In this document: in pieces, positions 3,702 to 12,080 of the stretch
How positions within the stretch are numbered: the stretch's first letter is position 1
Layout of the letters: each line of letters opens with the position of its first letter
Source: Pseudomonadota bacterium
GTDB taxonomy: Bacteria > Desulfobacterota > Binatia > UBA9968
Assembly: GCA_021324155.1 (NCBI GenBank)
Contig: JAJPJQ010000038.1
Coordinates: forward strand, 147,904-194,893
Direction: 5' to 3'
DNA length: 46,990 nucleotides
Translations under genes and position numbers: made by a program
Notes under the pieces: model-generated
Seen by the model: only the letters and a program-made list of their open reading frames with translations
Databases searched by the model: none
What the model was told of the DNA's origin: nothing

Positions 3702-6700
3702 TTAGCCGGTCGGCTGAATTATCTCCAGAACGCCCCGGATCGGCACGCGAACCCATTCGGGGCGGTTATTCAGCTCGTAGGCGATTTCATAGATCGCCTT
3801 CTCGAGAATCAACAAGTCGAGCAGGACCTTCATCTCGTCGCGCGAACGCGGCAAAAAGGCGGACTGGCCCGCCGCAGCCAGATAGGATTTCAAGAATGCC
3901 GTTGAAACCCAGATATTCCAAAACCGCGCCCATGGCTCCAGTGCTGCAGCATCCTCGGCGCGAATCGCGCCGGCTCTCAAAGCCGTGATGGCGGCGTAGT
4001 TGAACGACCGAATCATCCCGGCGACGTCTTTCAGCGGCGAGCGTTTCCCGCGTCGCTCGCTCAGCGCGCGCGCCGGCTCACCTTCGAAGTCCGTGATGAC
4101 GAAATCCTTTCCGGTGTAAAGAATCTGGCCCAGATGATAGTCGCCGTGGTGGCGCGTGCGCTGGCCGGTGATCTTGAGATCGAGTATGGCGCGCAGCCGG
4201 CGGTAAACTTCTTTCTCGTTGTCCAGCAGTCGCCGCGCCTCGGACTGTGCTTCCACCGGCAACTGCTTGAGCCGCTTGGCAACAAAACCGAACGTCTGCT
4301 TGGCTAACGTCCGCATGCCCTCGTACATCGAGCGGCGGTAAAAAGAGCTGAAGCCCTCGGGCGTGAACGCCGGGTCGGCGCCGTCCGACGCGAGCGCGAC
4401 GTGCATTTCTCCTGTGCGCTGCCCGATCAGCTCCGCCGAGGAGAGATAGGAGCCGACCATCTCGTGCACGAGAGGCGGAAACGGCCTGTCCACGATGTCG
4501 AGGAGATGCTCCTTGGGCAGAGGCAGATAGGGGCCGTCGGCGCGGCGCGCGAGACAGGCGTCGAAATACCGGTGCAGGCTGTCGAGCGTATAACTCCACG
4601 CGTCGCCTTGGTTTTGCACATACCCTTGCAGAATACCGACGGCGATCGGCTCGCCCCGCTCGCGGCGGCATTCAATGGCGCCGGCAAACGCCGGAATATG
4701 CGTAAACGCCATTTTTTCCGTCAGGAACCGCCCGACTTCCACATCGGGATTAATTCCCTCGACGAGGCGCCGGAAGATTTTCAGCATGAGGCGGTCGCCG
4801 AAGACGATCGAGCTGTTCGACTGTTCGCGCTTGACCGGCACCGGCTCGAGAGGCGCTTCGAACGAACCCGCTATCTGCGTAAAAAGCGTGGAAATCGATC
4901 CAACGACCTCGCATTTCTCGGCGTGGACCTTTTCCCCCCGGGCGATCAGCTGCAGCAGCGATTTGCAAAACCGGGTGTCGGCGAGCGCGTCGTAGAGAAT
5001 GCCTTCGGTCGCCTCGCCGCCGCGCACATGTATCTGCGCCACGGGCGCGGCGGCATTCGCTTGCGTTATTTCCTGCGCGCGCTCCACGCCGGCGAACGAA
5101 AGGGGAAGGAGATACGTTTCGGGCAGACCGCCGGCATATTGCACTTCCGCGAACAGCAGGTACGCCGTCGCGCCGTCGTAAGGCATGCGCAGCGCTTCGA
5201 GGATCTTTACGGCGCGCAGCTGTTTCGCCTTGCCGCCGAACCAGCGGCATTTTTGCAAGTAGTCGGGCAACAACCGCTCGAGCGCCGCGCGACTCCTCCC
5301 TTGCAGCGCCGCCTCCCACGAGCCGGCGACTTCGAGCCGCGGCAGCTCCACGGTGGAAGCGGGAGCGGCGATCTCCGCCGGATGCGGCGCCTCGAGCTTG
5401 AACCAGTAAAATGCGTGCGGGCCCAGCGTGAGAAAGTAAGGCAGCTCGCCGATCGCCGGAAACGCCGTGCGTCCGAAGAGCTCCACCGGCACCATGCCTT
5501 TGAAAGCCGACAGATCGAGCTCGGTGTACTGCACGAAGCGCGAGAGATTGGCGACAATGAGAATCATTTCGTCGCCGAGGCGCCGGAGAAAAACCAGCAC
5601 CTTGCGGTTGTCGGTGTTCAGAAATTGAATCGCGCCGCGGCCGAATGCGTGAAAGTTTTTTCTCAGCTGCAGCAGCCGTTTCATCCACCAGAGAAGCGAA
5701 TGAAGGTTTTGCTGCTGCGCCTCGACATTGATCGCTTCGTAGTGGTACTCGGGATCGATGATGACGGGCAGGAAAAGACGCTGCGGGTTCGCGCGTGAGA
5801 AGCCCGCGTTGCGGTCCGCGCTCCACTGCATCGGCGTGCGCACACCATTGCGGTCGCCGAGGTAAATGTTATCGCCCATACCGATCTCGTCGCCGTAGTA
5901 GATGATCGGCGTGCCGGGCAGCGACGCGAGCAGGCAGTTCAGCAGCTCGATCTTCCGCCGGTTGTTCCACAAAAGCGGCGCGAGTCGCCGGCGGATGCCG
6001 AGATTGATGCGCGCCTGCGGATCGGTCGCGTAAACCTTGTACATGTAATCACGGTCTTCGTCGGTGACCATCTCCAGCGTCAGCTCGTCGTGGTTGCGAA
6101 GAAAAATCGCCCATTGGCTGTTTTCGGGTATCGCCGGCGTCTGGTCGAGAATGTCGATGATGGGGTAATTGTCCTCCATGTGCACGGCCATGAAGATGCG
6201 CGGCATGACCGGGAAGTGAAACGCCATGTTGCATTCGTCGCCGGTGCTGAAATACGCCGCCGCATCCTCCGGCCACTGGTTCGCCTCGGCCAGCAGCATG
6301 CGGCCCGGATATTTCTGATCGACATAGGCGCGGAGCTTTTTCAAAAACTCGTGCGTCTCGGGAAGGTTCTCGCAGTTCGTCCCCTCGCGCTCGAACAGAT
6401 ACGGCACAGCGTCGAGCCGCAGCCCGTCGATACCCATTGCGAGCCAGAAGTCGAGCACCTGGAAAATGGCTTTGACGACGTCCGGGTTGTCGAAGTTGAG
6501 ATCCGGCTGGTGGGAGTAGAAGCGGTGCCAATAGTACGCTTTGGTGAGCGGATCCCAGGCCCAGTTGGAGACCTCGTAGTCTTTGAAGATGATGCGCGCG
6601 TCCTGGTACTTTTCCGGCGTCTGGCTCCAGACGTAAAAGTCGCGCTCGGAACTGCCCGGCGCCGCCCGGCGCGCGCGCTGGAACCACGCGTGCTGGTCGG

Positions 6701-7055
6701 ACGTGTGGTTGATGACGAGCTCCGTGATGACGCGCAGCCCGCGCTTGTGCGCCTCGGCGAGGAATGTCTTGAAATCGTCCAGCGTGCCGTAGTTCGGATG
6801 CACGGCGGTGTAATCCGCGATATCGTAGCCGTCGTCGCGGAGCGGCGAGACGTAGAACGGCAGGAGCCACAGAGCCGTGACGCCGAGATCCTGCAGGTAG
6901 TCGAGCTTTTCCGTGAGCCCGCGAAAATCGCCGATGCCGTCTTCGTTACTGTCACGAAAGGCGCGGACGTGAAGCTGATAGATGACCGCGTCTTTGTACC
7001 AGAGCGGGTCGTCGCCTATGAGATTGTCTTCGCCGGGTCGCGTCCGTTCTACCAT
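3702..7055 (-). CDS. treS: Trehalose synthase-maltokinase fusion (TreS-Mak/Pep2)
   Basis: This bifunctional cytoplasmic protein interconverts trehalose and maltose (TreS) and phosphorylates maltose to maltose-1-phosphate with ATP (maltokinase), which is the GlgE substrate. The TreS half (about 1-560) is GH13: VINHTSDQH, nucleophile Asp215 in [10 protein letters not shown], Glu257 in LLAEANQW, and the NHDE motif with Asp323. The kinase half (about 580-1117) opens with [12 protein letters not shown] and carries the aminoglycoside-phosphotransferase-like motifs HGDYHLGQ (near 970) and DFEGEP (near 987). At 1117 residues it matches known fused forms, while mycobacteria keep the two as separate proteins. 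It starts 20 bp after glgE, so co-transcription is very likely. Confidence 0.95.
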
Positions 7056-7075
7056 GGTGTCGCCGCGGGTTGTGT

Positions 7076-9058
7076 CTACCGTACAGTGGGAGGCGCCGAA
7101 GCGTCCGGCTCGACGCGCAAAATGTGCGCCGGTATCGCGTCCGGCCGGAGCTCGACATAGTTGCGCGCGCCGCGCCAGGCGTAGCGCGCGCCGGTCAAAA
7201 GATCATGAACGTGGAATGCCGAACCCGGCTTTACGCCGATTTCCTCGAGCGTGAGATCGACCCAGCCCGACTGCACGTATTTCCAATCGAGATTGACGAC
7301 CATCAGGAGCACGTTCGAGCGGTCCGGCGTCCGCTTGCTGTAGCAAATCATCTGCGGATTATCGATCGCATGAAAGCGCAGCCGGCGGTCGCTTTGCAGC
7401 GCGGGGTTTTCCTTGCGAATGCGATTCACCGCCGCGATGAAATCTTTCAAACTGTCGGGTTTTTCGAGATCCCAGCGCTTGATCTCGTATTTTTCCGAGT
7501 TCAGATATTCTTCGCTGCCCGGCTCTTTCGGCCGATTCTCCATCAACTCGAAAGCAGGCCCGTAAATGCCGCAGTTCGCGCCCAGCGTTGCCGCGAGCGC
7601 ATATCGCGCCGTGAATGCGGGCCGTCCGCCCTGCTGGAGATAATCCATCAAAATGTCCGGCGTGTTCGGCCACAGATTAGCGCGGAAGTACTCTTTCATC
7701 TCCGTGTCGGTCAATTCTTCAAAATACTCCACCAGCTCGACTTTCGTCCGCCGCCATGTGAAATAGGTGTACGATTGCGTGAGCCCGCTCTTCGCGAGGC
7801 GCTGCATGATCTTCGGTCGCGTGAAGGCCTCGGAGAGAAACAGCACGTCGGGAAACTCCTTCTTCACCTCGCCGACGAGCCAGTCCCAGAAGCGAAACGG
7901 CTTGGTGTGCGGGTTATCGAGCCGAAAAATCCGCACGCCCTGCTCGGCCCAGTAGACGATCACGCTTTTGAGCTCTTCCCACAATTCGCGCCAAGCGCGC
8001 GTCTCGAAGTCGAGCGGCACGATGTCTTCATATTTCTTCGGCGGATTCTCCGCGTACTGGACCGAACCGTCCGGCCGCTTGCGAAACCACTCCGGGTGCT
8101 CCTTCACGTACGGATGATCCGGCGAGCATTGAAAAGCGATGTCGAGCGCGACTTCCATCCCGTGCTCTTTCGCTCGCGCGACGAGGCGCTTGAAGTCATC
8201 CAGCGTGCCGAGCCGGTGATCGATCGATTTGTGGCCGCCCTCCTCCGAGCCGATCGCCCACGGGCTGCCGGGGTCGGCCCCGGACGCGGCGAGCGCGTTG
8301 TTTTTTCCCTTGCGATGCGAGCGGCCGATCGGGTGGATCGGCGGCAGGTAGAGGACATCGAATCCCATAGATGCGACGTACGGCAGGCTCCGCTCCAGAT
8401 CGCGGAAGGTGCCGTGCGCGTCGGGACGATTGCCGAACGAGCGGGGGAAAAGCTCGTACCAGGTGCTGAAGCCCGCGCGCTCCCGATCGACCGTGACCGC
8501 GAGGTTCTTCTCGTACCGCGTGGCGAAGCGGCGGTCGGGATATTTTTCTACGAGGCGGATGAGCTCTGGATCGACCGGCGCCCCGTTTTTTTTCTCGGCC
8601 TGAGAGCCGAGCAGGTCCGCGCCGGTCTTCATCCTGTCCTTATCCGCGCCTCTCGCCCGGCGGGCCGCCTGCCGCACGAGCGCGGCGCCGGCCAGGAGAT
8701 CCGACGAGACGTCCTGGCCCGCCGCAATTTTCTTTTCCAGCCCCTGGCGCCAGCTGCCAAAGCGGTCGATCCATGCCTCGATCGTGTAGCTATAGCGCCC
8801 TATGCGCTCGAGCGTAAAAGCGCCGCGCCAGCGGTCGTTCCCGAGCGGCTCCATGGCGGTTTCGATCCAGTCGTCTTTTTTACGGCCGCGGTGCTTTAGC
8901 ACGGCGCGCACCAGGTCGTGGCCGTCGACGAAGATATCCGCCTCGACGGTTACCGTCTCGCCGACAACACGCTTGATAGCGAAGCGTCCGCCGTCGATCT
9001 CGGGCTCGACGTGCTCGATGACGGCGCGCTGTCGCCCGTCCGCCGGGAATCGCCCCAT
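7076..9058 (-). CDS. glgE: Maltosyltransferase GlgE (alpha-1,4-glucan:maltose-1-phosphate maltosyltransferase)
   Basis: GlgE adds maltosyl units from maltose-1-phosphate to alpha-1,4-glucan. The 660-residue length is typical. The N-terminal beta and helical domains (about 1-190) are followed by WYELFPRSF (200-208), the family signature [16 protein letters not shown] (239-254), [14 protein letters not shown], the nucleophile Asp381 in [13 protein letters not shown] and the acid Glu410 in [11 protein letters not shown]. These correspond to Asp394 and Glu423 of the Streptomyces enzyme. The start is five bases after the stop of the c-di-AMP cyclase gene and TreS-Mak follows after 20 bp, so a full trehalose-to-branched-glucan route sits in one operon. 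Confidence 0.96.
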
Positions 9059-9063
9059 TTGTC

Positions 9064-10266
9064 CTATCCTCCGGTTAGTCCATCGTCGTGGGCGGTTTTA
9101 TCGTCCGCGGCGACGCGCCGCAACTGAAGTCTCAGCGTCTGAGGCCTGACTTCTTCGACCGTGATCTCGTTCGGATGGCGGATACTCTGCGGCGTGATCA
9201 TAAACGTCCGGCGGCCGGTCTCGGCCGTGGAAGCATCCACCATCACCTTGAGGCGCTTGGGGTGGAAGAAATAAAAAGCCCGGCGCGGTCCGGAAAAAGT
9301 GGCCTCGACCTCGGTCGGTTGAAACGACTCGAGCTCGTAATCGGCCGGGATATTCTGGATCTGAACCGGAATACGATACGTCGCCTCCATCACCTTCGCG
9401 CCGGGGACGAAGACGTACCAGAAGCCCACGGCCATGGCGACCGCGATCGCCTTCGCCTGCCAATTCTCACGCACGTGCTTGACCGGTATCCATTTCCAGA
9501 TGCGCCGCCCCTCAGGCTCTTCTTTCTGTAGAAACCTTTCCAATAGCCCGACCAGCTCTTGAGGATTTTCCAGGCGATGGAGGCGGCCGTCCCGCGCCGC
9601 GGAGATCGTACCGCGCTGCTCGGAGACAACGATCGCCAGCGCGTCCGTGAGCTCGGCGATCCCGAGCGCCGCGCTGTGGCGCGTGCCCAGGGTGGCGAGC
9701 TGCCGGAGATCCTTCGAGAGCGGAAGATGCGCGGCAAAACGCGTCACGCGGTCGCGCTCGACGATGACCGCGCCGTCGTGCCCCGGCGAATGCGGGTCGA
9801 AGATACTCCTAAGCAGCGGCTCGCTGACCTTGCCGTCGAGCGGGATGCCGCCCACGATATGGCGCGCGAGCGGATCGTTGCCTGATACGACGATCAGCGC
9901 GCCGATGCGGTCTTTGGCGAGATCGGCCGCGGTGCGCACGAGCGCGTTCGCCGTCTCTGATTGCAGCTCGAGGCTGCCGCTCGACCGCCAACTCCAGACC
10001 GCGACGCGCTCGAAAATCTGCCTGAGCTCTTCTTGGAAGATGACGACGATCATGATCAGGAAGATCGCGAAGAAGCCCTGAAAGATCCATGCCGTCAGCT
10101 GGAGCTCGAATTGCCGGGCGATAAGATAAACGATGGCGAGTACGAAAATCCCTCGCAGCACGAATGCCGCGCGAGTCGTTCGGAGCCACACCATGGCGGT
10201 GTAGACGAGAATGGCGACAAAGAGGATGTCGATTATGTCGGAGATCGTTGCAAACGTTCCGATCAT
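9064..10266 (-). CDS. cdaA: Diadenylate cyclase CdaA fused to a YbbR (CdaR-like) domain
   Basis: The protein should make c-di-AMP from two ATP molecules at the membrane. Three N-terminal membrane helices (about 12-75) lead into the DAC domain, with HDGAVIVE (DGA at 164-166) and LGTRHSAALG (the RHxAA motif, 196-200). After about residue 250 come a further hydrophobic segment (272-288) and a YbbR repeat (about 297-390, with YRIPVQIQNIPADY). In Firmicutes these are separate genes, cdaA and the regulator cdaR; here one 400-residue chain carries both. GGGAGG precedes the ATG at 10266. It heads the glgE-treS-glgB-treZ operon, which implies that c-di-AMP output and trehalose/glucan metabolism are expressed together. 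Confidence 0.94.
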   Translation of the reverse strand: MIGTFATISDIIDILFVAILVYTAMVWLRTTRAAFVLRGIFVLAIVYLIARQFELQLTAWIFQGFFAIFLIMIVVIFQEELRQIFERVAVWSWRSSGSLELQSETANALVRTAADLAKDRIGALIVVSGNDPLARHIVGGIPLDGKVSEPLLRSIFDPHSPGHDGAVIVERDRVTRFAAHLPLSKDLRQLATLGTRHSAALGIAELTDALAIVVSEQRGTISAARDGRLHRLENPQELVGLLERFLQKEEPEGRRIWKWIPVKHVRENWQAKAIAVAMAVGFWYVFVPGAKVMEATYRIPVQIQNIPADYELESFQPTEVEATFSGPRRAFYFFHPKRLKVMVDASTAETGRRTFMITPQSIRHPNEITVEEVRPQTLRLQLRRVAADDKTAHDDGLTGG

Positions 10267-10287
10267 CGGCCCTCCCGAGCAGCTTTT

Positions 10288-10315
10288 AGGGTAGCAGTTT
10301 GCAGAGACCGTTCAA
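10288..10315 (-). promoter_or_regulatory. Candidate promoter for cdaA
   Basis: On the minus strand TTGAAC (10315-10310) is followed after 16 bp by TACCCT (10293-10288). Transcription would begin near 10281, just upstream of the ribosome-binding site of cdaA and downstream of the intrinsic terminator at 10334-10368. If active, it would let the operon run independently of the leader RNA. The -10 box is weak, so this is a motif match only. Confidence 0.4.
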
Positions 10316-10333
10316 TGCGGGCGTGGCGGCGGT

Positions 10334-10368
10334 AAAAAAACAAACGGGCCCCCTTCCGGGAGCCCGTT
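10334..10368 (-). terminator. Strong intrinsic terminator upstream of cdaA
   Basis: Read on the minus strand, AACGGGCTCCC pairs with GGGGGCCCGTT (11 bp including one G-T pair) around a GGAA loop and is followed by TGTTTTTTT. The 5' arm shares AACG with a second possible hairpin, CGTTAG-CGTC-CTAACG at 10365-10380, so the two structures compete for those bases. It ends either a stand-alone RNA starting near 10616 or an attenuated leader of the cdaA-glgE operon. Confidence 0.85.
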
Positions 10369-10532
10369 AGGACGCTAACGCGCCCATATACACGATTCAA
10401 TTTTTTTGCTTTGGCTGCCCGCGCCCGGCGTCAGGTATTCCGTACCGCGGTCGCTTGAGAGTAAGCCTTCCTTCTATCTTCGATCGGAGCGCCGATCTTG
10501 TGCCTTCTAGGCACGATAGTTGAGGCTACTGT
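10369..10532 (-). ncRNA. Structured RNA region (candidate regulatory RNA or attenuator)
   Basis: Read on the minus strand, this segment can fold into a three-way junction (10529-10461): an outer GTAGCC with GGCTTAC (one bulge), an inner CTATC with GATAG, and two hairpins, GTGCC-TAGAA-GGCAC and GATCGG-CGCT-CCGATC. A further hairpin, GGTA-CGGAA-TACC (10446-10434), sits inside CCGC/GCGG, followed by an A-rich single-stranded stretch and the terminator at 10334-10368. With the upstream promoter and leader ORF the transcript would be about 280 nt. I do not recognise it as 6S RNA, tmRNA, RNase P RNA, SRP RNA or the ydaO-type c-di-AMP riboswitch, but this is by eye only. It could be an independent small RNA or a leader controlling cdaA. 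Confidence 0.5.
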
Positions 10533-10604
10533 TTACCGGCCGCGCCGGGGTACCATGTCGCGAGGCCGCGGGCGTTTTTGGCCCGGCGGAATTCCCTCGT
10601 CCAT
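10533..10604 (-). CDS. Possible 23-residue arginine-rich leader peptide
   Basis: An ATG at 10604 follows AAGAGG by six bases and opens a 23-codon frame ending TAA at 10533. The peptide is strongly basic toward its end (RPRPRD, then VPRRGR). It lies between the strong promoter at 10623-10650 and the three-way-junction RNA, the position expected of a translated leader in an attenuator. Ribosome stalling at the Arg/Pro-rich stretch could then influence folding of the RNA behind it, which is inference. The frame is short enough to be chance; the well-placed ribosome-binding site is the main argument for translation. Confidence 0.35.
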   Translation of the reverse strand: MDEGIPPGQKRPRPRDMVPRRGR

Positions 10605-10622
10605 GATTAACCTCTTGTCTTC

Positions 10623-10668
10623 ACCTTAACGTCCGCGACAAACTTGTCAAGAGAAAAAAAATTTTCTT
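10623..10668 (-). promoter_or_regulatory. Strong promoter with UP-like A/T tract for the leader RNA
   Basis: On the minus strand a perfect TTGACA (10650-10645) is followed after 16 bp by TAAGGT (10628-10623). Directly upstream of the -35 is an A/T-only tract (AAGAAAATTTTTTTT, about 10668-10654) resembling an UP element. The start of transcription would be near 10616, just ahead of AAGAGG and the leader ATG. It is among the best sigma70-type promoters visible in the window. Confidence 0.6.
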
Positions 10669-10671
10669 AAG

Positions 10672-10925
10672 GTTTCTGAAAATTCCCTCATGGTCGAGCT
10701 CGGCTACGAAACGGTTGTCGATGAAGCGCTCCGCGGCCCGCGCGCGCCTCGCACTTCGAGCACCCCTTGGGGTCGACGCGAATATCCATTCGATATCGGC
10801 GCGCATAGACAGAGTAGAGTTTTTCTAGGAGGTCGGAGTCCGAAAGTTTCATATACTTGCTGAACATCCGCATGACGAGCTTTTTATCTGTCCGGGCTCG
10901 TGTAATTGCTTCGACGGCGCCTGTT
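10672..10925 (-). pseudogene. Decayed C-terminal remnant of an NMT1-type substrate-binding protein
   Basis: Two adjacent minus-strand frames together spell the C-terminal part of the binding-protein family that fills this window. One frame gives TDKKLVMRMFSKYMKLSDSD, then LYSVYA and MDIRVDPKG. A frame offset by one then gives ERFIDNRFVAELDHEGIFRN. Intact paralogues here show the same order: TNRDGSLAIIGRYARAMKSD-type helix, a conserved Pro-x-Gly segment, and a final FxDxxxVxELxxxG motif. The frame changes near 10740-10770 and no N-terminal two thirds or signal peptide is present. It follows the nitronate-monooxygenase-like gene on the same strand, so it was probably once the last gene of that operon. 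The stretch from 10926 to 11096 holds nothing else I can recognise. Confidence 0.65.
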
Positions 10926-11096
10926 CGAATGTGATCGGGTGCTGCAGATAGGTCTTGAGCCGTGAAAAAATCCCCACTGCCCGTCCGCATGAAGTCGTCC
11001 AAGATCGTCGCGAATTCGACGACAGCGACCGCGCAGCGTCTTGAGAAGTTGGATAAAAGAAAGGACGCGTTGTCCGCTCGCGCCCTTACGATGGGA

Positions 11097-12080
11097 TCAA
11101 CGACGGGTAATAAGCTTCGCGAGTCTCTCCGCGATGATTCGCTCGGCCTCCGCCACCATACTTTCGATAACCTCGCCCGCCGGCCTGATCGCGTCGATGA
11201 GGCCCGCGTCCTGGCCGAAGAAAAGCGGCGCATTGGCCGCGTCGCCTTGCTTGCGCGCATCCGCCACTGCTTGCGCGATCGCGCGCTGCTCGCGGCGGAC
11301 GGCCCATTCGCGTCCCGCCCAGCGCTCGATGAAGCGATTTCGACCGACACGCGACATGGCGCCGGGCCAAACGCGGCCCGACGCGAGATCGGGGATTTCG
11401 GTCAGCACCGTATCGTGGCCGTCGCTGTCGACGATCGCCTGCTTGAAGTTGGGATGCAGCGGCGACTCGTGCGTCGCCAAAAGACGCGTGCCGACGAGAA
11501 CCCCTTCGGCGCCGAGCGCAAGCGCCGCGGCGAGGCCGCGGCCATCGGCGAAGCCGCCCGCGGCGAGCACCGGCAGCGGTGCGACCGCGTCGACGACCAT
11601 GGGCACGAGCGGCATGGACGCCATCCACGCGACGTGGCCGCCGGCTTCGGTGCCCTGCGCGACGATGATGTCGGCGCCGGCTTCGGCGGCGCGGACGTTC
11701 TCGAAGACTTCGCCGCCCATGTACATGACTTTGCAGCCGGCCGAATGAGCGCGATCGAAATAGGCGCGGAGATCCTGGTCGGGGCGCGCCCATGCAAAAG
11801 ACGCGACGGTAGGCTTCGTATCTAAGGTGACGGAGAAACGTTCTTCGTCGACTTCGAAAAGCAGGTGATTGATGCCGAAAGGCTTATCGGTCGCGCGGCG
11901 GATTGCCTCGACTTCTGCCCTGAGCCTACTGCCGTCCATCCCCGAAGTGCCGAGAATCCCGAGACCTCCGCTATTTGACACCGCCGCAACCAGCGGCGCG
12001 CCGGTCGCGCCGCCGCCCATTCCGCCGAGCACAATGGGATGGCGTATTTCGACAAGCGAGCAAAAGCGCGTCTGGATCAT
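11097..12080 (-). CDS. Nitronate monooxygenase-like (2-nitropropane dioxygenase family) flavoprotein
   Basis: This is an FMN-dependent TIM-barrel enzyme of the NMO/2-nitropropane dioxygenase family, which oxidises alkyl nitronates; some members are enoyl-reductase-like, so the substrate is uncertain. The 327-residue chain begins with IRHPIVLGGMGGGATGAPLV, the family's phosphate-binding N-terminus, and has the hallmark IIVAQGTEAGGHVAW. The FMN-phosphate segments LAAGGFADGRG and GAEGVLVGTRLLA follow. It overlaps the end of the small secreted-protein gene by four bases and is the last intact gene of the operon that starts at the M20 hydrolase (16562). It could remove nitronates or act in degradation of nitro or heterocyclic compounds, which is inference from context. 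Confidence 0.85.
   Translation of the reverse strand: MIQTRFCSLVEIRHPIVLGGMGGGATGAPLVAAVSNSGGLGILGTSGMDGSRLRAEVEAIRRATDKPFGINHLLFEVDEERFSVTLDTKPTVASFAWARPDQDLRAYFDRAHSAGCKVMYMGGEVFENVRAAEAGADIIVAQGTEAGGHVAWMASMPLVPMVVDAVAPLPVLAAGGFADGRGLAAALALGAEGVLVGTRLLATHESPLHPNFKQAIVDSDGHDTVLTEIPDLASGRVWPGAMSRVGRNRFIERWAGREWAVRREQRAIAQAVADARKQGDAANAPLFFGQDAGLIDAIRPAGEVIESMVAEAERIIAERLAKLITRR

Follow-up and report, generated by a model that had tools for sequence, protein, structure and literature searches.

A structured RNA with a conserved Pro-Pro reading frame, located upstream of cdaA in a Binatia genome, apparently belongs to a so far undescribed RNA family

In the 46,990-nucleotide stretch of Binatia DNA analysed here (the window), an element on the minus strand (10650-10334) adjoins the gene cdaA on its upstream side, which raises the question whether it is a regulatory leader of this gene or an RNA in its own right. 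The initial annotation had considered both, a riboswitch or attenuator of cdaA, perhaps sensing c-di-AMP, and an independent small RNA. As annotated, cdaA lies close behind the terminator of the element: its ATG at 10266 (minus strand) follows the T tract after 67 nt. The gene encodes a product of 400 amino acids with the Pfam domains DAC and CdaA_N.

On the minus strand, to which all coordinates of the element refer, it begins with a perfect -35 sequence TTGACA (10645..10650). The promoter had been described as strong, but this is not clearly so: the best candidate -10 sequence, TAAGGT (10623..10628, spacer of 16 nt), is weak with a 3/6 match, a consensus scan of positions 9500-12000 found no promoter, and 20 nt present in the promoter region of the relatives L003 and L004 are absent from the window copy. 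If the promoter assignment holds, the RNA would be about 280 nt long at this locus. A Shine-Dalgarno (SD) sequence AAGAGG (10611..10616) is followed by a short ORF of 23 codons, MDEGIPPGQKRPRPRDMVPRRGR (10533..10604, including the stop), with the adjacent proline codons CCG CCG (10584..10589). The ORF and its ribosome-binding site were thus annotated properly, but the arginine richness ascribed to it is missing in most of the 23 ORFs translated, where Pro-Pro is conserved instead. Behind the ORF core follow a three-way junction, a hairpin GGGCGC-GTTA-GCGTCC (10385-10370) and a predicted intrinsic terminator (10368-10343, with the T tract reaching 10334), in the order annotated; the structure is larger than described, however, as the three-way junction lies within a long-range helix (P0).

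Neither the window, at gathering score, nor 20 relatives searched whole matched any of the 4227 Rfam families. In the window this includes the covariance model of the c-di-AMP riboswitch, known as ydaO-yuaA. At E≤10, only MicX was reported for positions 10200-10900, on the opposite strand and with a score far short of its cut-off. The comparison with Rfam models, set beforehand as a possible refutation of a new RNA, therefore yielded no known class, and among the matches listed in a search of open-licence literature we found no description of this RNA. Together with the covariation described below, this is in line with the new structured RNA originally proposed: apparently, the element represents a real RNA family, undescribed so far.

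A DNA similarity search in 145 genomes, the element's own included, revealed similar sequences in 3 others. In two of these loci, L003 and L004, promoter, SD sequence, ORF, junction and terminator are arranged as in the window, and the downstream genes differ from that in the window. A first covariance model built from 3 sequences gave matches in 26 of the 145 genomes at E≤0.05 (34 rows), of which L023-L025 (read and found to be non-members), L029-L031 (missed by the pattern scan) and G018:C68 (E 0.038) were left out. With 23 members a second model was built, whose search returned 40 rows; 36 were accepted and L088, L090, L092 and L093 rejected. The third model, based on 36 members, gave 48 rows in 39 genomes at E≤0.001 among 148 genomes of the class. 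After rejection of L088 (G064), which by eye has no SD sequence, promoter or terminator, 47 homologous loci in 38 of the 148 genomes were accepted, the window element being one of them. Candidates were rejected by eye where SD sequence, start codon, Pro-Pro, promoter and terminator did not occur all together; this also applied to L109-L111 from a later search (19 rows). L042 matched the core pattern yet lacks the SD-Pro-Pro pattern, as does L002, a second place in the element's own genome (38 bp, 85%) that we took as a chance match.

Within the window's family (f1), 21 of 25 genomes have members, as do 8 of 9 genomes of f3, which belongs to the same order, and 9 of at least 16 genomes of f6; each carrier genome has one to three copies. 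Among 395 genomes across the phylum, searched with strict large-set filters that lose weak matches, there were no accepted members outside the class; L094 (G398) and L113 (G308), two of the four rows obtained, were rejected by eye. Judged from these genomes, the family is lineage-restricted.

In 43 of the 47 loci a TTGACA sequence occurs no more than 170 nt ahead of the start codon, compared to 4.6% of 170-nt stretches drawn at random from the fetched loci. L033, L079 and L080 have no TTGACA; instead, a sigma-54-type promoter (TGGCAC/T..TTGCT) begins 43-44 nt before the start, which suggests regulated expression of these copies. A terminator was recognised automatically in 39 of 47 loci, 30 of which have a separate hairpin ahead of it, comparable to that in the window.

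The three-way junction with two perfect hairpins that had been annotated is well borne out by the relatives. It consists of the closing stem P1 (5' strand 10523..10530, 3' strand 10460..10468), the outer half of which is paired in just 56.9% of alignment cells, and of the hairpins H1 (GTGCCT-AGA-AGGCAC, 10500..10514) and H2 (GATCGG-CGCT-CCGATC, 10482..10497). All modelled pairs of H1 (5/5) and H2 (6/6) change on both sides, and 95.5% and 85.1% of the cells are paired, respectively; these values and the one for P1 refer to the model-fitted alignment of 36 loci described below. H1 occurs as GTGCC/GGCAC, TTGCC/GGCAA, CTGCC/GGCAG and, by eye, as GTGTT/AACAC in f3. In an unfitted MAFFT alignment of 23 loci, 14 of the 25 pairs in the model vary at both positions with 82.5% of cells paired, and the covariation score of 0.211 (0.101 in shuffles) was reached by 0 of 500 shuffles. 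The corresponding values for 36 loci are 21 of 25 pairs, 84.2% and 0.309 (0.142 shuffled, 0.052-0.092 slid; again 0/500), in an alignment that leans towards the model because it was fitted to it. Eleven later loci (L097-L100, L102-L108) were excluded from these pair counts and from both tests of P0. The folded region of the window copy is more stable than its dinucleotide shuffles (z -3.18, 1/100 shuffles as good), as is the stretch reaching from Pro-Pro into the first part of the terminator (z -4.12, 60 shuffles). For the 17 members folded out of 47, z was negative in all and below -2 in 13. The covariation that had been proposed as a check is therefore present, and it supports the three-way junction of P1, H1 and H2. 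In L081, H2 spans 101 nt, its stem being intact around a loop insertion of about 85 nt; this looks like a small element that landed in a tolerant loop.

P0 is proposed to pair two distant strands. The 5' one starts 16 nt downstream of the first proline base, and the far end of the other is located 157-213 nt further on (293 nt in L081). In the window these strands are GCCCGCGGCC (10564..10573) and GGGCGCGGGC (10417..10426). Besides the folds, the evidence comes from permuting partner strands between loci. With a fixed search interval, own partners in 30 loci were superior to permuted ones with z 5.9 (0/20000). Five control segments gave z values of 0.5, -0.2, 0.9, 0.3 and 2.4, the last one for the terminator region (199/20000), and a sixth control, the 16 nt adjoining P0, gave 4.2 (2/20000), consistent with a helix that continues past P0. 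The 30 loci remained from 36 after six near-identical ones had been dropped, and the search interval was chosen after the single-locus shuffle results. With hand-picked 3' strands the own partner ranked first in just 8 of 28 loci and fell below the mean foreign partner in four (L013, L015, L083, L086); here, L027 and L089 had no picked strand and the six near-identical loci were again dropped from 36. P0 rests on the group test because single loci often fail to exceed their shuffles (as good were 33/100 in L011, 65/100 in L021, 75 in L033 and 81 in L083). Furthermore, many f1 members can form a local hairpin GCCCGC/GCGGGC using the same 5' strand. This hairpin is lost in the window copy and in L003, both of which keep P0. 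L101 and L104 (f3) retain it in their folds, by eye, beside a different long-range helix.

The ORF is conserved in its first codons. All 47 loci have a start codon, and the number of codons from the start to CCN CCN, the start counted, is 3 in seven loci, 4 in one, 5 in 34 and 6 in five, so that Pro-Pro falls within codons 4-8. CCN CCN is present in 47 of 47 loci, which is partly a matter of selection, since it was part of the search models and a ground for acceptance; it was found in the 36-member set (36/36) and in all 33 rows of the second model at E≤2.8e-7. The wobble bases vary (first proline codon CCG 22, CCA 22, CCC 2, CCT 1). Pro-Pro is preceded by T in 20, S in 14, N in 5, I in 3, A and V in 2 each and E in 1 locus (T or S in 34/47), and followed by G in 18, D in 17, E in 7, C in 3 and K in 2 (G, D or E in 42/47), the preferred residues on both sides being encoded by differing codons. 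The conserved core thus reads M-x(2-5)-Pro-Pro-[Gly/Asp/Glu] and shows a coding signature. Beyond it, the 23 translated ORFs are not conserved, and total length ranges from 8 to 51 amino acids; 3 ORFs of 8, 1 of 9, 4 of 12 and 3 of 13 amino acids end just past Pro-Pro. Judging from the groups, the length changes that keep the frame before Pro-Pro amount to no more than about three events, making the evidence for translation of the ORF good but not overwhelming.

The SD sequence is GGAGG in 43 loci, GAGG only in three, among them the window copy, and AGGA in one. Its distance to the start (4-10 nt) and the distance from the start to Pro-Pro (9-18 nt) are both variable. Despite this, the sequence GCCC starts exactly 16 nt after the first proline base in 43 of 47 loci and GCCG in one, whereas it is missing at this position in group IV (L033, L079, L080). 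With the second proline codon in the P site, the GC-rich strand would begin at +14 from the first P-site base, roughly the position expected for a ribosome's front edge. Judged from the sequences, ORF and fixed geometry are well supported.

We slightly favour the explanation that the element is an autonomous structured RNA gated by its own translation, in which a ribosome slowed at Pro-Pro stands in front of P0, and which acts in trans. A ribosome would load at the SD sequence and slow down at Pro-Pro, its front edge abutting P0 or the local GCCCGC/GCGGGC hairpin with which P0 competes for its 5' strand in many f1 members. During the pause the 3' domain would stay folded and the 5' end would be protected; a ribosome moving on would open P0 and set free its 3' strand. 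Pause and release would in this way control P0, so that translation gates fold and lifetime of the RNA, which might then act on a target in trans. Here we infer expression and a target as well as the pausing itself. The host genome encodes a protein of the EF-P family. According to an excerpt of PMC5811046, PPG and PPD are strong stall motifs, and G or D follows Pro-Pro in 35 of 47 loci; PPE is not among the strong stalls listed in that excerpt. On the other hand, S or T upstream of Pro-Pro weakens stalling according to the same excerpt, and TPPP is described as a weak pauser in the available part of a reporter study (PMC8129111). The residue T or S in front of Pro-Pro in 34 of 47 loci and the exceptions to P0 are among the strongest doubts about this mechanism. 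If it is true, a ribosome-slowing codon pair is conserved within a stand-alone RNA of uncultured bacteria, with constant spacing to a helix strand. This would offer a direct test, outside the usual setting of leader peptides, of whether an RNA can govern its own fold or lifetime in trans by means of a paused ribosome.

More tentatively, the minimal Pro-Pro ORF may serve to park a ribosome at a set distance before the RNA's own folded domain. The complex of RNA and ribosome would then be the working unit, either reporting on elongation (EF-P, proline supply) or using the ribosome as a scaffold.

It is rather doubtful, though worth considering, that the element acts in trans as a structured RNA whose CCNCC and SD sequence matter as RNA, e.g. 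for masking of the SD sequence or for binding of a protein, while the ORF is open incidentally. GGAGG can pair imperfectly with CCNCC, and a CCTCC upstream that might mask the SD sequence was seen by eye in L011, L012, L014 and L035, which have group I leaders, as well as in L020 and L021. The differing tails of the ORFs and the weak stall context provided by T or S (PMC5811046, PMC8129111, each as excerpted) would also agree with this. Against it, the frame is kept through the length changes of 3-6 codons before Pro-Pro, the wobble positions are free, and the preferences for T/S and G/D/E hold across different codons.

The element is unlikely to be the mRNA of a small functional peptide, whose RNA structure would serve stability or control of translation only. 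A strong SD sequence and the conserved start and Pro-Pro core could be expected of such an mRNA, but not an ORF that varies between 8 and 51 amino acids and in several loci stops just behind Pro-Pro, nor the strong covariation in the part behind the ORF core. A type I toxin was considered and rejected, the 23 translated peptides not being hydrophobic as judged by eye.

Very little speaks for the proposal with which we started, that a ligand such as c-di-AMP or the position of a ribosome on the leader ORF selects either the terminator or a hairpin competing with it and thereby controls cdaA in cis. It was suggested by the position of cdaA on the same strand directly behind the T tract, and by a hairpin CGTTAG-CGTC-CTAACG (10380-10365) that indeed overlaps the 5' arm of the terminator in the window copy. 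This hairpin, however, occurs in 1 of the 39 terminator-bearing loci, namely in the window only. Furthermore, the 46 relatives are located beside other genes: a tblastn search of the 1.5-3.2 kb fetched for each did not find cdaA (best E 1.5). According to crude ORF calls the nearest downstream ORF is on the opposite strand in 23, on the same strand in 18 and uncalled in 6 of the 47 loci, i.e. opposite in 23 of 41 called. Ten of the 41 downstream proteins, taken from different loci, fall into ten kinds of Pfam family, e.g. aconitase, MFS and aldo/keto reductase. The differing neighbours, their mixed orientation and the absence of cdaA from the other fetched stretches argue for a stand-alone RNA instead of a cdaA riboswitch. 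The independent small RNA, annotated as the second option, thus gains support from promoter, terminator and unrelated neighbours, as far as anatomy can tell. The link to c-di-AMP is most likely accidental, although co-option in this one genome is possible.

That the element is a diverged housekeeping RNA such as 6S RNA or tmRNA, to which the long rod-like fold with its own promoter and terminator bears some resemblance (6S-like in outline), is highly improbable, considering the absence of an Rfam match, the up to three copies per genome, the location of the genome's only RF00013 (6S) match (89.4 bits) on another contig with none in the window, and the result of an ARAGORN scan of the window, which detected no tmRNA.

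The autonomous, translation-gated RNA that we favour shares features with several known systems. Diproline leader peptides such as mgtL and other known diproline arrest peptides regulate a downstream gene. Like the RAPP-type peptides ApcA, ApdA and ApdP, the family combines a short Pro-Pro ORF expected to slow the ribosome with an RNA structure beside it. The RAPP types have a C-terminal R-A/G-P-P or RAPG motif, the third and fourth codons of which are in the P and A site at the stall, and are refractory to EF-P, according to an excerpt of PMC12992588. In contrast, the motif of the family is mostly [T/S]-PP-[G/D/E] and near the N-terminus, Pro-Pro is mainly preceded by T or S, in disagreement with R-A/G-P-P, and there is no consistent downstream gene.

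Dual-function small RNAs such as SgrS, RNAIII and SR1 have the layout predicted for the family, being stand-alone RNAs with promoter, terminator, structured body and short ORF. Their peptide itself is functional and the targets of the RNA are known, whereas conservation of the ORF in the present family is limited to the first codons, which keep a constant spacing to a helix strand. In leader attenuators of the trp/his type the position of the ribosome on the leader ORF chooses between alternative helices. The family could likewise couple ribosome position to alternative helices, but the cis-controlled gene that defines an attenuator is missing: it adjoins unrelated genes, many of them on the opposite strand, and the nearest called downstream ORF shares the strand of the RNA in only 18 loci. 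Orphan structured RNAs described as Rfam motifs are similarly defined by covariation in uncultured bacteria; unlike these, the family has a short ORF that bears a coding signature. At minimum, it constitutes an RNA family unmatched by Rfam release 15.

Its weaker SD sequence, poor -10 sequence and lost local hairpin indicate that the window copy could be a decaying member of the family.

Some leaders contain additional elements, all noted by eye. In L011-L014 the leader contains a hairpin whose loop reads AGCGCGC. That the 5' GCGCGC loop might pair with the hairpin preceding the terminator was considered, and rejected as inconsistent. The group II leaders (L015, L016, L017, L022, L032) have a pseudoknot-like element in common, in which a GATCCA/TGGATC-like stem (GACTCA/TGAGTC in L017) is crossed by GGGGC/GCCCC.

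Upstream of the RNA, the window contains a nitronate monooxygenase gene (11097-12080), and a gene resembling it by eye is likewise located upstream of the RNA in L003 (391-1365). In the window, an open frame of 220 amino acids (10688-11350, minus strand) fills the space from the RNA to the monooxygenase gene, which it overlaps; this frame has no match in Pfam and may not be real. Downstream of cdaA, positions 3702-9058 (minus strand) encode a GlgE-type maltosyltransferase and a protein with alpha-amylase and maltokinase-cap domains, which we take to be trehalose synthase-like.
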